Program-made: the position numbers and the translations under genes
The notes under the pieces: model-generated
Seen by the model: only the letters and a program-made list of their open reading frames with translations
Told to the model about the DNA's origin: nothing
Database searches by the model: none
Virus record (IMG/VR): IMGVR_UViG_3300022916_000105
Span: 1 to 20,051 of that record
Strand: one strand, 5' to 3'
Length of the DNA stretch: 20,051 nt
Origin: a virus
Part shown: positions 2,316-19,933 of the stretch, piece by piece
How positions within the stretch are numbered: the stretch's first letter is position 1
Layout: every line of letters starts with the position of its first letter

Positions 2316-3140
2316 TCATTTTATTTTCTTTAATTTCATTCCATAATTATCGACACCTTTCTTAATTTCCAAACCTTTCTTTTTTATCAGTTTGTTTCTT
2401 TTAAAGGGTGTATAATTTACTTGGTGCTGCCACCGTCCCCACTTCCATGTTACTCTAGTTAGGTTGGGGTGTAGCTCTTTAAGAGCTTCTGCCATCTTTA
2501 AACGACCATCTTGGATCAAATATAAGTCCTCAGTGTTTCCTCCTTTAATAGTCATTGTGGTGGATTTCAATTGTATGAAAGCATAGAAAAGAATCGTACA
2601 CCATTTCTCCTTTAAAGCTTGCAAACAAACATCTGTATCATCATTGTACAGGCTTCTCCATCTAAAGGGAATGGCATTGTTCACTAGTGTGCAGGAATAG
2701 ATTCGGGTGTTTATAACAAAGGCTGGATGTAGAACTTTACTAGGTACAAAGAAGTCATATTGGAATCCAGCATATGCTATATTCTCATATCTATCCACAA
2801 AGTCCTCAGCACACCTAAAGATAGTGCCTGATGTAACAGGAACATGGTAGTTGTTATTGAATCTACAAAAGCCTTCAATATTATCATCCAGTTGCCAATG
2901 TCTTTTAGCTCCTAAAGATATGGAATGTTCCATGATCCAATTCCTAGCTGAAAACAATCCCTTATTGCTAAAGGGCAATACCAGAATCTTTTTAGGAGAA
3001 ATGACAGAAGCATATTGCTCATACTCTTCTTTTTCTACCACTATATAATAAGGCATATTCATTAGCTCCAGAGCTTTACTAGTCAATCTGGTTTCCCACC
3101 TACCTTTAGATGGTATGTACACTGGGTATTTAGGATTCAT
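2316..3140 (-). CDS. TET/JBP-associated-type glycosyltransferase (TAGT-like)
   Basis: This 274-residue protein matches my memory of the TAGT family of phage glycosyltransferases. The marks are an N-terminal YPVYIPSKGRWETRLTSKAL, LPFSN at 55-59, ARNWIMEHS near 65-73, an acidic HWQLDDNI at 81-88 that likely binds metal and nucleotide sugar, a second acidic cluster NDDTD at 166-170, then TMTIKGGNTEDLY near 195-207 and a C-terminal RLKMAEAL...WKWGRWQH. Family members are linked to glycosylation of hydroxylated bases such as 5-hydroxymethylcytosine in phage DNA. No TET/JBP oxygenase or C5 methyltransferase lies in this window, so the acceptor hydroxyl must come from elsewhere in the genome or be another base. 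The start overlaps the end of the upstream 89-residue gene by 11 bases, which indicates tight coupling. Confidence 0.8.
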   Translation of the reverse strand: MNPKYPVYIPSKGRWETRLTSKALELMNMPYYIVVEKEEYEQYASVISPKKILVLPFSNKGLFSARNWIMEHSISLGAKRHWQLDDNIEGFCRFNNNYHVPVTSGTIFRCAEDFVDRYENIAYAGFQYDFFVPSKVLHPAFVINTRIYSCTLVNNAIPFRWRSLYNDDTDVCLQALKEKWCTILFYAFIQLKSTTMTIKGGNTEDLYLIQDGRLKMAEALKELHPNLTRVTWKWGRWQHQVNYTPFKRNKLIKKKGLEIKKGVDNYGMKLKKIK

Positions 3141-15178: not shown

Positions 15179-15730
15179 ATGTCAAAAACTTATCAAGGAA
15201 AATATGATCAAAAGTATGATGAGAGAGCATACAAATTATGTTTGTTGGGATTGAAAGATGACGAGCTTGCTTTAGCATTTGGAGTGGCTCAGTCAACAAT
15301 AACTTTATGGAAAAGAGAACATCCAACTTTTAAGAGGGCAACTGATATAGGAAAGAGAGAAGCAGATGGAAAAGTGGCCGAAGCTCTATATCATAAGGCT
15401 ATTGGATATAGTCATAAAGACACCCACATATCTGTTATTAAAAATAAGGTAGTAAAAACACCAATTACAAAACACTATCCTCCTGATACATCTGCCTGTA
15501 TATTCTGGCTAAAGAATAGAACCAGAGGACAGGAAGTGCCTTGGTCAGATAGATTAGAGGTGACAGGAGCTGAGGGCAGACCTCTTCTAAATGCTTCCCA
15601 AATAGACCTTTCCGACCTTAGTGATAGTGAATTAGCATTATTAAAGAGTCTGTCAGAAAGCCTGCACCAATCCACAGAAATGAGAAGAAATACCAAAGTC
15701 AAAAAACAAAAACAAAAAGAGCTTAATTAA
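15179..15730 (+). CDS. terS: Terminase small subunit
   Basis: This 183-residue protein should recognise phage DNA for packaging and deliver it to the large subunit encoded 21 bases downstream. Residues 12-50 contain RAYKLCLLGLKDDELALAFGVAQSTITLWKREHP in consecutive pieces, a helix-turn-helix typical of small terminases. Residues 57-76 (DIGKREADGKVAEALYHKAIG) form the central oligomerisation helix. The segment YPPDTSACIFWLKNR near 101-115 is a hallmark of this family. The C-terminus is basic (KVKKQKQKE), fit for DNA or large-subunit contact. ATG 15179 follows GAGAAATT, with no clear Shine-Dalgarno. Confidence 0.9.
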   Translation: MSKTYQGKYDQKYDERAYKLCLLGLKDDELALAFGVAQSTITLWKREHPTFKRATDIGKREADGKVAEALYHKAIGYSHKDTHISVIKNKVVKTPITKHYPPDTSACIFWLKNRTRGQEVPWSDRLEVTGAEGRPLLNASQIDLSDLSDSELALLKSLSESLHQSTEMRRNTKVKKQKQKELN

Positions 15731-15751: not shown

Positions 15752-17281
15752 ATGAATATGCCAGTACTTGATATCGCCAGAACAAAGAAGCCTAAAAAGC
15801 AAAGGATGAAACAAGCACTCCAAAATTATTATACTATAATTAAGGAGCAAAACAACCGTAGCTTTTTTGAGTTCTTTAAATACTTCTGGCCCCAAGTCTC
15901 AGATGATGCATTAAGTTTGAATTGGCATATAGAATACCTATGTGATGAGTTACAAAAGGTTGCAGAAAATGTAGCATTAGGATTGCCAAAAGAATATGAC
16001 CTAGTAATTAACATACCACCGGGTACAACCAAAACAACTATATGTAGTATTATGTTTCCAGCATGGTGTTGGACAAGATGGCACTGGATGAGATTTATTA
16101 CAAGTAGTTATTCAGGAGCTTTAAGTTTAGAGTCAGCTGAGTATTGCAGAGACTTGATCAAGAGTGATCAGTTTATGGAGGTATATCCAGAATTAACGAT
16201 TAAGGACGATAAAGATACCAAGAGTAATTTCAGGCTTCAAAAGTCCATATGGGACAATATAAAGAGGATGCCAGCTATATTAAGAGGAGGTAACAGATAC
16301 AGTACATCGGTGGGCGGGACATTGACGGGATTCCACGGGCACATGCTGATTGTAGATGATCCTCTGAATCCCAAACAAGCCGTTTCTGAGAAGGAGCTGG
16401 ATAATGTTAACCATTGGATGGAACAAACCTTATCCACTAGAAAAGTATCAAAAAGAAATACACCACTAATTTTGATAATGCAAAGACTGCACCAGAATGA
16501 TCCAAGTGGAAAATTACTAGCTAAGAAGAAAAAGAAAGTTAAGCATATCAGTCTACCGGGACAGATCAGAGATTATGAGAAACAACTCAAACCAATAGAA
16601 GTTAAGGAGAAGTACAAAGATGGTTTACTTGACCCAAAAAGAATGTCTTGGGAGGAGTTGGATGAGATGGAGATAGACCTTGGCCAATATGGATATGCAG
16701 GACAGGTAGGTCAGAATCCAGTACCACCGGGAGGAGGAATGTTCAAAGTGGATCGTTTTAGCTATATAGAAGCTATGCCCTCCCAACCACAGATAATGGG
16801 AGTTGTAAGATATTGGGATAAGGCAGGGAGTCAAGGAGCAGGCTGTTATACTGTTGGAGTAAAGATGGCCAGATTGAGGTCTGGTAAATTCATAGTGATG
16901 GATGTTAAGAGAGGGCAGTGGAGTAGTGAGGTGCGTGAGGCTATAATAAAGGATACAGCCGAAGCTGATGGAAGAGATACTTTGGTGTACCATGAACAAG
17001 AACCGGGCTCAGGAGGAAAGGAAAGTGCAGAAGCTACCACCAAGAACTTAGCTGGGTTTGTAGTACAGGCTGATTTACCAAGAGGTGATAAGGTATACAG
17101 GGCTGATCCATACTCTGTCCAAGTCAACAATGGTAATGTACAGATATTAAAAGGAGAATGGAATTTGACCTTTATTGAAGAGCATAGATTTTTTCCTTTT
17201 AGCACTTATAAAGATCAGGTGGATGGAGCCAGTGGCGCATTTACTAAATTAGTAGGAAAGAAAGAAGCAAAGATATGGTAA
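15752..17281 (+). CDS. terL: Terminase large subunit (ATPase and nuclease)
   Basis: A 509-residue packaging motor. The N-terminal ATPase has a Walker A-like INIPPGTTKTT (87-97), lacking the usual first glycine as in related phage terminases, and Walker B HMLIVDDPLN (197-206), followed by coupling motif LILIMQRLHQND. The C-terminal RNase H-like nuclease shows VVRYWDKAGS with D356, an acidic YHEQEPGSGGKE near 413-424 and KDQVDGASGAF near 488-497, the expected three acidic clusters. Length and domain order are normal. ATG 15752 is used; ATG 15758 two codons later is equally possible. The end overlaps the methyltransferase start by 7 bases. Confidence 0.93.
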   Translation: MNMPVLDIARTKKPKKQRMKQALQNYYTIIKEQNNRSFFEFFKYFWPQVSDDALSLNWHIEYLCDELQKVAENVALGLPKEYDLVINIPPGTTKTTICSIMFPAWCWTRWHWMRFITSSYSGALSLESAEYCRDLIKSDQFMEVYPELTIKDDKDTKSNFRLQKSIWDNIKRMPAILRGGNRYSTSVGGTLTGFHGHMLIVDDPLNPKQAVSEKELDNVNHWMEQTLSTRKVSKRNTPLILIMQRLHQNDPSGKLLAKKKKKVKHISLPGQIRDYEKQLKPIEVKEKYKDGLLDPKRMSWEELDEMEIDLGQYGYAGQVGQNPVPPGGGMFKVDRFSYIEAMPSQPQIMGVVRYWDKAGSQGAGCYTVGVKMARLRSGKFIVMDVKRGQWSSEVREAIIKDTAEADGRDTLVYHEQEPGSGGKESAEATTKNLAGFVVQADLPRGDKVYRADPYSVQVNNGNVQILKGEWNLTFIEEHRFFPFSTYKDQVDGASGAFTKLVGKKEAKIW

Positions 17282-17784
17282 CAAAGAAAAGAAAACAGAT
17301 GATAGGAGGAAATGGTGTAAATCATACCAGACCTTTAATGTTGGATTTGGGCTGTGGGGCATTTACCAGAGCTGGATTTGTAGGAGTAGATATATGGCCA
17401 GCTGGAACTCCTATGTTTAAAGGTGTACCAGCTAAGACAGATGTGGTTGCTAATTTAAATAAAGGGATTCCGTTTGGGGATTCTGAGGTTGATCAAATCT
17501 ATTCTGGGCACTTCTTAGAGCATGTGGACAATCCAACCTTCTTAATAGAGGAGATGTGGCGAGTATGTAGGGATGGTGCTATTGTAGAAACAGTGGTGCC
17601 TATATGGGAACATCATAGTATGGATCATAAAACAATATTCTTTCCGGGATGGGGCAAAAGATTCTTTACTGAAGATAAGTGGGAACTGGTTGAGGTCCGA
17701 ACTAAGGAGAAGTATGTTGAAACAAGTGTAGGTTTATTCTATACTATATTTGAGCAAATGGTTATAACTAAAGTAATCAAATGA
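17275..17784 (+). CDS. Class I SAM-dependent methyltransferase
   Basis: A 169-residue Rossmann-fold methyltransferase. Motif I is LDLGCG (23-28), with the acidic strand end VGVDIW (36-41) binding the ribose of AdoMet. VDQIYSGHFLEHV with HFLEH is the post-motif loop typical of small-molecule and glycan methyltransferases, distinct from DNA enzymes: no NPPY or PC motif is present. The C-terminal part has HHSMDHKTIFFPGWGKRFF. Neighbours suggest it modifies a sugar made or transferred by the large glycosyltransferase, whose start overlaps its stop (ATGA). ATG 17275 overlaps the terL end; an in-frame ATG at 17299 (MIGGNG) is an alternative start. Confidence 0.82.
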   Translation: MVTKKRKQMIGGNGVNHTRPLMLDLGCGAFTRAGFVGVDIWPAGTPMFKGVPAKTDVVANLNKGIPFGDSEVDQIYSGHFLEHVDNPTFLIEEMWRVCRDGAIVETVVPIWEHHSMDHKTIFFPGWGKRFFTEDKWELVEVRTKEKYVETSVGLFYTIFEQMVITKVIK

Positions 17785-19928
17785 AATTAGGGATTCTCAT
17801 ATTGCAATATAACTCAGTTGAGTTTACTAATAGACTGGCCAAGAGTATTCCAGAAGCTATTGTTATTGATAATGGTAGTGATAAAGGAAAGCGATTCAAA
17901 GGAGCTAATGAAACCATAAGACTGGATAAGAACTATGGTTTCACCATAGGTTGGAATAAGGGAATAGAAGCAGTGTATGATAGGTTTGATGCTTTCTGGC
18001 TAATGAACAATGATATCGAGATTGATAGAACCAGCATAGAAAGAGTCCAAGCCCTATTAGAAAGAAAGGACATTGCCATATTTACTCCTTCCTATAATGG
18101 ATGGGCAAAAGAGTTTGACAATCATTTCACTGAGGATGTAAGAGAAGTTGGAGCAATAGAGTTCTGCGCACCTATCATTAAGAAGGAAGTATTTGAAAAG
18201 ATAGGCTTATTGGATGAACGATTCAGTTTAGGGTATGGAGTGGAATTTGATTTCTGTTATAAAGCTAGGAAGGAAGGATATGGAGTACATGTGGATGATG
18301 GTAGTAGTTTCTATCATCATGGGCAACAGACCACTGGAATAGAGCTGGGCCGGACCTTAGTGGAGCATGAAAGAATAGCTAACAAAGAGAGATACAAAGT
18401 GATGCAGGAAATCTATGGTGCTAATTGGCAAAAGAAAACCATGGAAGGCGTCACTCTAACAACTGAGCTAAGAACACCAGTGGTTATCTATACTACGGTA
18501 TTTGGGAATTATGATGAAGTGAAGCCTATTCCAAAACAAAAGGGATATAAAGAAGTGGAATACATCTGCGTGACGGACAATCCTAAATTAGTATGCCCTG
18601 ATCCATGGAAGAGATTAGTGGTAGTGAATCCTTGTGGAAGCCTTGACCCCAGAATGAGGGCCAAATATCATAAGCTTCTGTTTTTCAGAAATCCAGTACT
18701 AAATAAGTTTTACAAGCTCCTCTATATAGATGCCAGCATTGAGGTCACCAGTGATAGTTTGTTATTGGAAGCCTTTGGTGATATGGAGCATATGAAGCTC
18801 TTTAAACATCCCAGCAATAGAACAACCATACAAGAAGAGATCAAAGAAGCTAGGAAGCTAGTGAAGTATGTTGGAGAGTATATGGAAGCGCAAGTGGATC
18901 ATTATACTGAGCAGGGATATAAGAATGAAAAAGGCTTATGGGCATGTGGAGTAATGGCCCGAACTAATAATAAGAAGGTCAGAGAGCTAATGGAAGCTTG
19001 GTGGGAGGAGAATGTACAATGGACTATCCAAGATCAGCTCAGCTTTCCTTATGTATGCTGGAAGCAGGATTTCAATCCACAGGCTTTTAATGGTAACCAA
19101 GGAAAGAATGATTGGTTTAAAGTAATATGGCATGACGATAATAGGGTTTCGGAAGCTAGGAAGAAGCTTGCCGAGAACAAGTCGCTATATGTGGAGCAAT
19201 CAGATAAACCTATTCTAAACAATACTAAGTACAGTCCAGTTGATATGGGAGTCTTAATGCCCGTTTATAACACTCCATTAGTTTATCTAAAGGAAGCTGT
19301 TGAAAGCATCCTCAACCAGAGTGACCCAGATTTTAAATTTGTAATAGTAGATGATGGGAGCACCTTGCCAGAAGTAATATGGTATTTAAATCATTTATAT
19401 TCTAAAGGGCTTATAACATTGTACCGTTTTGATAAGAATGTAAAACTGGCCAAGAGTTTGAATAAGGGCTTACAGGTTTGTAAAACAGAATGGGTCATAA
19501 GGATGGATGGAGATGATATTGCCCATAAGGATTTGGTGAGAGTACATAAGAACAATATTCGGAACCATCCTAATAGAATATGCACTGGAGTACAGGCAGA
19601 AAGGTTTGGGAGGAAAACAAAACCAATTTGCCATCCTTCCTTAGTGACGGCAGAGGATGCTTATAACATGGAAGGATTCTGGTTTGTGAATCATATAGGA
19701 GTCTGCTACCATAGGCAAACTGTACTCAATTTAGGAGCTTACGGTGACACACAGCTAGCGGCCGAAGACTATGCCCTTTGGGTCAATATCTTAGCTAATG
19801 GACATAACATCTACAATCTGCCTTTAGTATTGATGAGGCACAGGACTACGGATGGAAAGCATAGGAACAAAGATGTACAGAAGTTTTTAGAAAAGCAAAA
19901 AAGTAAATTGGACAAAATAAAAGTATAA
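17781..19928 (+). CDS. Trimodular glycosyltransferase (GT2-like, DUF616-like, GT2-like)
   Basis: A 715-residue protein with three transferase-like modules. Module 1 (1-225) starts GILILQYNSVEFTNRLA, has VIDNGSD and the metal-site-like FWLMNNDIEID (72-82), and RFSLGYGVEFDFCYKAR, as in family 2 rhamnosyltransferase-type enzymes. Module 2 (about 230-450) has VVIYTTVFGNYDEVKPIP, YICVTDNP and KLLYIDASIEV, the pattern I associate with DUF616-type transferases. Module 3 (about 488-700) begins MGVLMPVYNTPLVYLKEAVESIL with VIVDDGS and RMDGDDI near 575, a second GT2 fold. No membrane segment is seen. The protein could build a multi-sugar chain on a virion protein, on DNA or on host surface glycan. The 4-base overlap with the methyltransferase suggests a joint pathway. 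Confidence 0.85.
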   Translation: MKLGILILQYNSVEFTNRLAKSIPEAIVIDNGSDKGKRFKGANETIRLDKNYGFTIGWNKGIEAVYDRFDAFWLMNNDIEIDRTSIERVQALLERKDIAIFTPSYNGWAKEFDNHFTEDVREVGAIEFCAPIIKKEVFEKIGLLDERFSLGYGVEFDFCYKARKEGYGVHVDDGSSFYHHGQQTTGIELGRTLVEHERIANKERYKVMQEIYGANWQKKTMEGVTLTTELRTPVVIYTTVFGNYDEVKPIPKQKGYKEVEYICVTDNPKLVCPDPWKRLVVVNPCGSLDPRMRAKYHKLLFFRNPVLNKFYKLLYIDASIEVTSDSLLLEAFGDMEHMKLFKHPSNRTTIQEEIKEARKLVKYVGEYMEAQVDHYTEQGYKNEKGLWACGVMARTNNKKVRELMEAWWEENVQWTIQDQLSFPYVCWKQDFNPQAFNGNQGKNDWFKVIWHDDNRVSEARKKLAENKSLYVEQSDKPILNNTKYSPVDMGVLMPVYNTPLVYLKEAVESILNQSDPDFKFVIVDDGSTLPEVIWYLNHLYSKGLITLYRFDKNVKLAKSLNKGLQVCKTEWVIRMDGDDIAHKDLVRVHKNNIRNHPNRICTGVQAERFGRKTKPICHPSLVTAEDAYNMEGFWFVNHIGVCYHRQTVLNLGAYGDTQLAAEDYALWVNILANGHNIYNLPLVLMRHRTTDGKHRNKDVQKFLEKQKSKLDKIKV

Positions 19929-19933
19929 AACAA

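Follow-up and report, generated by a model that had tools for sequence, protein, structure and literature searches.

Does a virus that encodes sugar-transferring enzymes directly behind its packaging genes use them on its own particle? The question is raised by IMG/VR record IMGVR_UViG_3300022916_000105, the entire 20,051 bases of which form the window analysed here, a single contig representing a genome fragment. Its plus strand, from position 15179, carries in succession the terminase small subunit gene terS (15179-15730; phrog_309, 2.9e-38), the terminase large subunit gene terL (15752-17281; phrog_38, 2.2e-87), a gene for a small class I S-adenosylmethionine (SAM)-dependent methyltransferase (17275-17784) and one for a 715-residue glycosyltransferase chain of three modules (17781-19928), the contig ending 123 bases later. 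We put at roughly 60% the probability that the latter two genes form a late virion-glycosylation cassette, working like the enzyme sets of cluster O mycobacteriophages and the chlorovirus protein A064R. The computed basis of this reading is the order and overlap of the genes, the presence of three GT-A modules with intact motifs and no membrane-like segment, and the recurrence of the same modules among head genes accompanied by unrelated terminases; from these we infer the substrate, the sugars and the order of their addition, the target of methylation, the timing and the benefit.

The preliminary description of this locus, made from the sequence alone, had its open reading frames (ORFs) and their coordinates right, and the Pfam and PHROGs profiles bear out both the small methyltransferase and the three-module chain. 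It had also coupled the chain by overlapping starts to both neighbours, which holds directly for one: the methyltransferase stop (17784) overlaps the ATG of the chain (17781), and the terL stop (17281) overlaps the ATG of the methyltransferase (17275), so that the chain is linked to terL only by way of the methyltransferase. The methyltransferase itself scores 36.7 bits against PF08241, for which the cut-off is 21.2 (6.9e-9; phrog_6636, 2e-8), and carries the motif DLGCG, placing it among class I SAM methyltransferases. No transmembrane-like segment was found in it, nor any relative of solved structure by sequence at E 0.01.

Three glycosyltransferase modules in one chain

The chain consists, in order, of a GT2 module, a TOD1/MUCI70 module (PF04765, formerly DUF616) and a second GT2 module, all three of GT-A type. 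Glycos_transf_2 (PF00535) matches the whole protein at 4.6e-28 in two stretches, the better lying at residues 491-610, and the TOD1 profile matches residues 276-430 at 3.7e-9 (36.7 bits against a gathering cut-off of 21.4). PHROGs profiles named glycosyltransferase match residues 1-163 (phrog_2456, 9.2e-7) and 235-429 (phrog_26101, 2.7e-10), and a GtrB-like profile matches residues 490-587 (9.4e-6).

The motifs singled out beforehand as probable nucleotide-sugar sites were located precisely and compared in alignments of the window with the six relatives covering each module. In module 1 (residues 1-228; 17781-18464), the DxD-like N76-N77-D78 (18006-18014) has its first and third residues identical in the window and all six relatives, each of which has S in place of N77; E155 (18243-18245), an acidic residue where the GT2 motif would place the catalytic base, is E in the window and four relatives and D in two (L107 and L113). 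In module 2 (approximately residues 230-445; 18468-19115), D317 and S319 of D317-A318-S319 (18729-18737) are identical in the window and all six. The same is true in module 3 (approximately residues 487-700; 19239-19880) of D576, D578 and D579 within the DxD motif D576-G577-D578-D579 (19506-19517), and of E662-D663 (19764-19769), presumably the "ED" catalytic-base motif. To judge from sequence, the putative nucleotide-sugar and base residues of modules 1 and 3 are thus intact; the loss of catalytic residues in two of the modules, named in advance as a result that would refute the proposed glycosylation programme, was not found.

Structure prediction likewise returned confident domains. The AlphaFold2 model of the whole chain, built from 11 aligned sequences, has a mean predicted local distance difference test (pLDDT) of 79.9 and a predicted template modelling score (pTM) of 0.42, with low-confidence breaks between modules at residues 225-231 and 452-486 (the latter a linker between modules 2 and 3, 19134-19238, with pLDDT <50) and four shorter ones within modules. 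The modules are therefore predicted to fold with fair to high confidence in a model that gives no mutual placing of them. Module 1 (model residues 1-228) resembles GT-A enzymes including GalNAc-T2 (VIA-align Z ~18), and module 3 resembles the GT2 structures 6p61 (Z 21.5, 2.7 A over 178 residues) and SpsA (Z 20.7). Modelled alone, module 2 (229 residues) reaches pLDDT 87.7 and pTM 0.88, and its fold is GT6-like, the neighbours being BoGT6a and the ABO and alpha-1,3-galactosyl transferases (Foldseek 1.7e-7; VIA-align Z 14.4, 3.2 A over 196 residues), a GT-A likeness that says nothing on donor specificity. GT6 enzymes are retaining, and the likeness may thus hint at an alpha linkage. No membrane-like segment was detected in the chain, where the highest 19-residue Kyte-Doolittle mean is 0.92.

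The fusion is not a chance one, since two full-length homologues share 42-43% identity with it across the chain. A direct search of viral contigs with the 715-residue protein returned nothing; single-protein patterns reach close relatives only, and the relatives described below came from alignment-based searches.

Recurrence of the enzyme set among head genes

The same three modules occur together in eight other distinct contigs (L104, L105, L106, L107, L110, L113, L118 and L132), seven of them viral and one, L118, a Bacteroidales metagenome-assembled genome (MAG); their ORFs are 33-48% identical to the window, ORF by ORF. They form a single chain in L106 and L110; L105, L107, L113, L118 and L132 join modules 1 and 2 in one ORF and encode module 3 in another that overlaps it; and in L104 all three are separate. 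The split in the five intermediate cases falls at the linker corresponding to residues 452-486 of the window. Excluded from this count were L119 (no TOD1 match), L116 and L117 (GT2-like matches only) and L120, as well as second locus numbers of contigs already counted (L112, L114, L115 and L126-L131); one alignment, A5, was badly aligned and was set aside.

In all eight contigs the trio lies inside a head/packaging block. A head maturation protease gene, the gene following it, or both, lie upstream in seven (the protease being named by phrog_53 in L110 and by profile in the others); the gene after the protease is a putative major capsid protein (MCP) gene by position, bearing no Pfam or PHROG name in L110. 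A terL-like gene lies downstream in seven, so that the trio precedes terL, in contrast to its position after terL in the window. In L104 the upstream side, and in L105 the downstream side, falls outside the contig. The terL-like gene carries no Pfam or PHROG name, and terminase annotations are attached to some related genes in phage records; in L110 it is followed by a gene with a weak match to a portal family (phrog_11226, 4.7e-5), and BLASTP found no significant match between its product and the window terL. The search proposed in the preliminary description, for the same fusion next to terL in other phages, thus succeeded in part: the modules keep company in eight head/packaging blocks, only two as one fused chain, and they stand before terL. 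That one enzyme set recurs in the head modules of no fewer than two distinct phage groups speaks for a connection with the assembly of particles. In the trees, one for modules 1-2 and one for module 3, the window occupies a long branch next to the six other rows; they were rooted only for drawing and so indicate no direction of transfer.

Directly upstream of the trio in all eight contigs is a Stealth-like gene (GT0), with PF11380 matches below cut-off in the three that were scanned. This Stealth-CR2-like gene (L110 5246-6001; L124 1286-1972) corresponds to phrog_7999, of unknown function, and is matched in 25 mycobacteriophage records, at 26-27% identity among the matches listed; in Cheetobro the match lies ~0.5 kb before the terminase gene. 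Among the excluded loci, the Bacteroidales MAG contig L120 (4355-10753) has GT0 and module 1 beside bacterial-looking, metabolism-like genes, possibly a decayed prophage, and L117 (3545-13845) has glycosyltransferases together with epimerase-like and aminotransferase-like genes (by eye) between major capsid and head-tail adaptor genes.

The TOD1 family was also surveyed more widely. Ninety TOD1-family ORFs, L132 not included, fell into 35 groups at 70% identity, and 15 of these, window included, have a match to terL, portal, MCP, putative MCP or protease no farther than 6 kb away. This figure is a description rather than a test, several of the profiles having been seeded from the same loci (with names from PHROGs and Pfam) and the flanks extending at most 10 kb. 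Arrangements near the terminase include methyltransferase-GT2-TOD1-terL-portal-like (L049), GT2-TOD1-methyltransferase, one gene, then terL-portal (L043), GT2-TOD1-GT4, one gene, then terL (phrog_38)-portal (L040), and terL-TOD1 (L063); in L095 terL and a portal gene recognised by profile only are followed farther on by GT2-TOD1-methyltransferase. Near capsid genes we found protease-MCP-GT4, one gene, then TOD1-methyltransferase-GT2-connector (L026), and MCP, one gene, then TOD1-GT2 (L071). Three unannotated phage-collection records numbered MT83xxxx (L017, L018 and L020) contain bacterial-looking ORFs and were given no weight as evidence from phages. At L035 7995-8669 a TOD1 gene adjoins a gene resembling the DNA polymerase III alpha type (by eye) and other replication genes, neighbours from which some members of the family may be supposed to act on DNA.

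A cultured relative and the window's own phage group

Cellulophaga phage phi18:1 (NC_021790, Helsingorvirus) offers a counterpart in culture. Its terL is 40.5% identical to that of the window over 484 aligned columns, and its genes run terS, terL, portal, head morphogenesis, small genes, gp40, gp41, small genes, protease, MCP. A published account takes gp40 for a DNA methyltransferase and classes gp41 among CAZy enzymes (PMC11946311). In our searches gp40 matches PF13578, a general methyltransferase domain, and gp41 consists of a TOD1 module (PF04765, 7.9e-8) followed by a GT2 module like module 1 (1e-8 in a search of five proteins). The two loci thus share a related terL and a methyltransferase gene followed by a TOD1-containing fusion within a block of head genes; they differ in that gp41 has two modules, TOD1 first, that the methyltransferase belongs to another family, and that the pair is sited after the portal gene. 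We regard gp40-gp41 (L125 7534-9206) as a cassette of the same kind, so that the idea can be put to the test in a cultured phage, and gp40 may methylate a glycan rather than DNA.

Closer to the window stand 15 relatives of its terL at 54-65% identity, not all of them independent (L007, L008 and L009 seem to represent a single phage). The portal gene begins 0-368 bases after terL in 12; two have no portal match and one has its portal 9.2 kb away. None of the 15 yielded a match to the cassette profiles, within stretches ending 1.2-10 kb after terL. The proximity of portal to terL in the 12 argues that the cassette of the window is probably an addition at that site, though the window's portal gene lies past the contig end. 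Composition gave no sign of recent import: the GC content of the methyltransferase and chain genes is 0.39 versus 0.40 for terL, and the codon distance of the cassette is 0.09-0.13 to late genes and 0.11-0.16 to early ones, late and early genes themselves being separated by 0.11.

Models for the cassette and its proposed mechanism

Two known systems supply the favoured mechanism, by analogy and not as proof for the window. In the cluster O mycobacteriophages Corndog, Firecracker and Catdawg the order is terL, portal, an O-methyltransferase gene, three glycosyltransferase genes (the first termed "hypothetical" in Firecracker and "glycosyltransferase" in Catdawg), protease and capsid. For Corndog, it is reported that all four enzymes were detected in infected cells and were not among the proteins identified in virions, and the capsid was suggested as what they modify (PMC4351075); according to a later note citing Freeman 2023, the cluster O enzymes modify capsid and tail tube (PMC11600133). 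As in the window, a methyltransferase and several glycosyltransferases are encoded with overlapping starts in a head-gene operon; unlike there, the genes are separate and follow the portal, and the methyltransferase is of TylF type (PF05711) rather than PF08241. BLASTP found no significant similarity between the window cassette and Firecracker gp33-gp36, in which no TOD1 match was detected either, and the sole cluster O match was a weak one of gp35 to module 1 (7e-9 by hidden Markov model in a search of four proteins). On sequence grounds, the cassette does not belong to the cluster O enzyme family.

The second system is that of chlorovirus PBCV-1, whose A064R is described as combining two transferases with a methyltransferase in a single chain, adding two rhamnoses in turn to the capsid glycan and methylating the last (PMC9614988, PMC7826918). 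A064R and A111/114R resemble the window chain as virus-coded three-domain transferases, those of PBCV-1 serving a capsid glycan. They differ in that the virus infects a eukaryotic alga and the methyltransferase lies within the A064R chain, and the likeness drawn here is one of described domain make-up and activity.

On the favoured reading, the three overlapping genes, from terL to the one for the chain, would probably be translated from one message at the time when heads are built. The soluble chain would work in the cytosol, its substrate being a protein of the virion and most likely of the head; each module would use a host nucleotide sugar and the three together would build a short glycan, probably of two or three sugars, which the methyltransferase would cap with a methyl group. 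The benefit may be to shield the particle or to alter what it binds. We advance more tentatively the broader proposition that mobile virion-glycosylation cassettes based on TOD1/MUCI70 pass from the head module of one tailed phage to that of another, unrelated one, phages of Bacteroidota included, and that the window shows such a cassette joined into a single three-module synthase, which would decorate the particle with a methylated oligosaccharide as it is assembled. No description of such a fusion in phages was found in the titles and abstract openings of open-licence literature. Virion glycosylation has been reported for mycobacteriophages and algal giant viruses; if our reading is correct it extends to phages of Bacteroidota, in which genes of this kind have so far been annotated as DNA methylation or regulatory sugar enzymes. 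Sugar coats bear on the contact of particles with host receptors, mucus and immune factors.

Several observations weigh against a role in virion glycosylation. Neither the portal nor the capsid gene of this phage is on the contig, so that only terS and terL of the head/packaging block are visible, and a glycan on virions of this kind is a prediction from the genes. A small methyltransferase gene accompanies the trio in only two of eight relatives by the profiles used (L104, PF08241 1.5e-11; L110, weakly, PF13847 0.041 only), the Pfam scan having covered some, not all, of the neighbours; in L113 its place is taken by a DNA-methylase-like gene that lies two ORFs downstream. The Stealth-like gene, constant in the relatives, has no profile match anywhere in the window. 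Within the wider TOD1 family, 18 of the 35 groups have no terL, portal, MCP or protease match within 6 kb and two more have only a weak protease match (~1e-5), many groups being long clusters of sugar genes; by eye, the TOD1 gene of L035 sits among apparent replication genes, and that of L018, with a GT2, in an apparent bacterial polysaccharide locus.

Alternative functions

The rival that survives best, an unlikely one in our judgement, is modification of the host surface, with a cell-surface glycan altered late in infection so as, for example, to block superinfection or release progeny from receptors. Module 3 matches GtrB-like profiles of O-antigen conversion, the Foldseek neighbours include polysaccharide polymerases and teichoic-acid transferases, and the L018 locus sets TOD1 beside GT2 in a bacterial context. 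GtrB-type conversion, however, needs membrane parts, GtrB itself being membrane-anchored, and the chain, devoid of any membrane-like segment, is not of that kind. A packaging operon would be an odd site for lysogenic conversion, and no partner gene is visible alongside, though only 123 bases follow.

Glycosylation of DNA appears more doubtful still as the task of the chain, which would in that case extend a sugar on modified bases, begun by an early TAGT enzyme, just before packaging. The window does encode a TAGT-type homologue outside the cassette, on the minus strand (2316-3140; PF20691, 2.8e-43; phrog_842, 2.2e-39). In T2/T6, TAGT is described as adding glucose to glucosylated hydroxymethylcytosine (PMC13216743), and the replication-gene setting of L035 is in keeping with this idea. 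However, the cassette lies on the opposite strand and in another region from TAGT; Pfam found no TET/JBP or other base-hydroxymethylating enzyme in ten further early ORFs (13 smaller minus-strand ORFs being outside the scan, and the contig a fragment); and the TAGT profile matched the window only, with no match in the relatives' stretches, which are partial genomes. Of the two separate glycosylation systems proposed in the preliminary description, the TAGT homologue is upheld and the DNA-directed system depends on that one gene; from its sequence, DNA glycosylation by the phage, as distinct from the cassette, is possible.

A polymerase in which the two GT2 modules take turns in building a repeating polysaccharide is very improbable: the chondroitin synthase K4CP is the top Foldseek match of the whole chain (2z86, 7.2e-16), followed by heparosan synthase and LARGE1, but an overall root-mean-square deviation of ~22-31 A means that the likeness is domain by domain, the TOD1 module sits between the GT2 modules, and six of the eight relatives encode module 3, or every module, in an ORF of its own.

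Other features of the window

Behind the cassette, an ORF begins at 19933 on the plus strand and is cut by the contig end at 20051; what the preliminary description calls the next late gene is only these 39 codons, which have no match among the loci compared. The window contains no tRNA and gave no Rfam match at the gathering threshold. Promoter-like sites (22 versus 16.4 expected, about chance) and terminator-like sites (none found on the plus strand from 14500 on) were not used as evidence.

The minus-strand genes up to 14592 encode a SNF2 helicase, a sigma-70 region 2 protein, an IstB-like ATPase, a weakly matched DnaB, the TAGT enzyme and an N6/N4 methylase, and look like an early region. 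The DNA-methylase-like gene of L113 (12853-14091), between the trio and terL, shows a profile match to this N6/N4 methylase (2e-24). At the opposite end of the window, a partial minus-strand ORF without a Pfam match (1-312) contains a CxxxxCxxC-like cysteine motif (CLTDCHHC) recalling radical SAM enzymes, and the adjoining minus-strand ORF (312-1013) has long Glu/Asp runs alternating with stretches rich in Lys, Ala and Pro.

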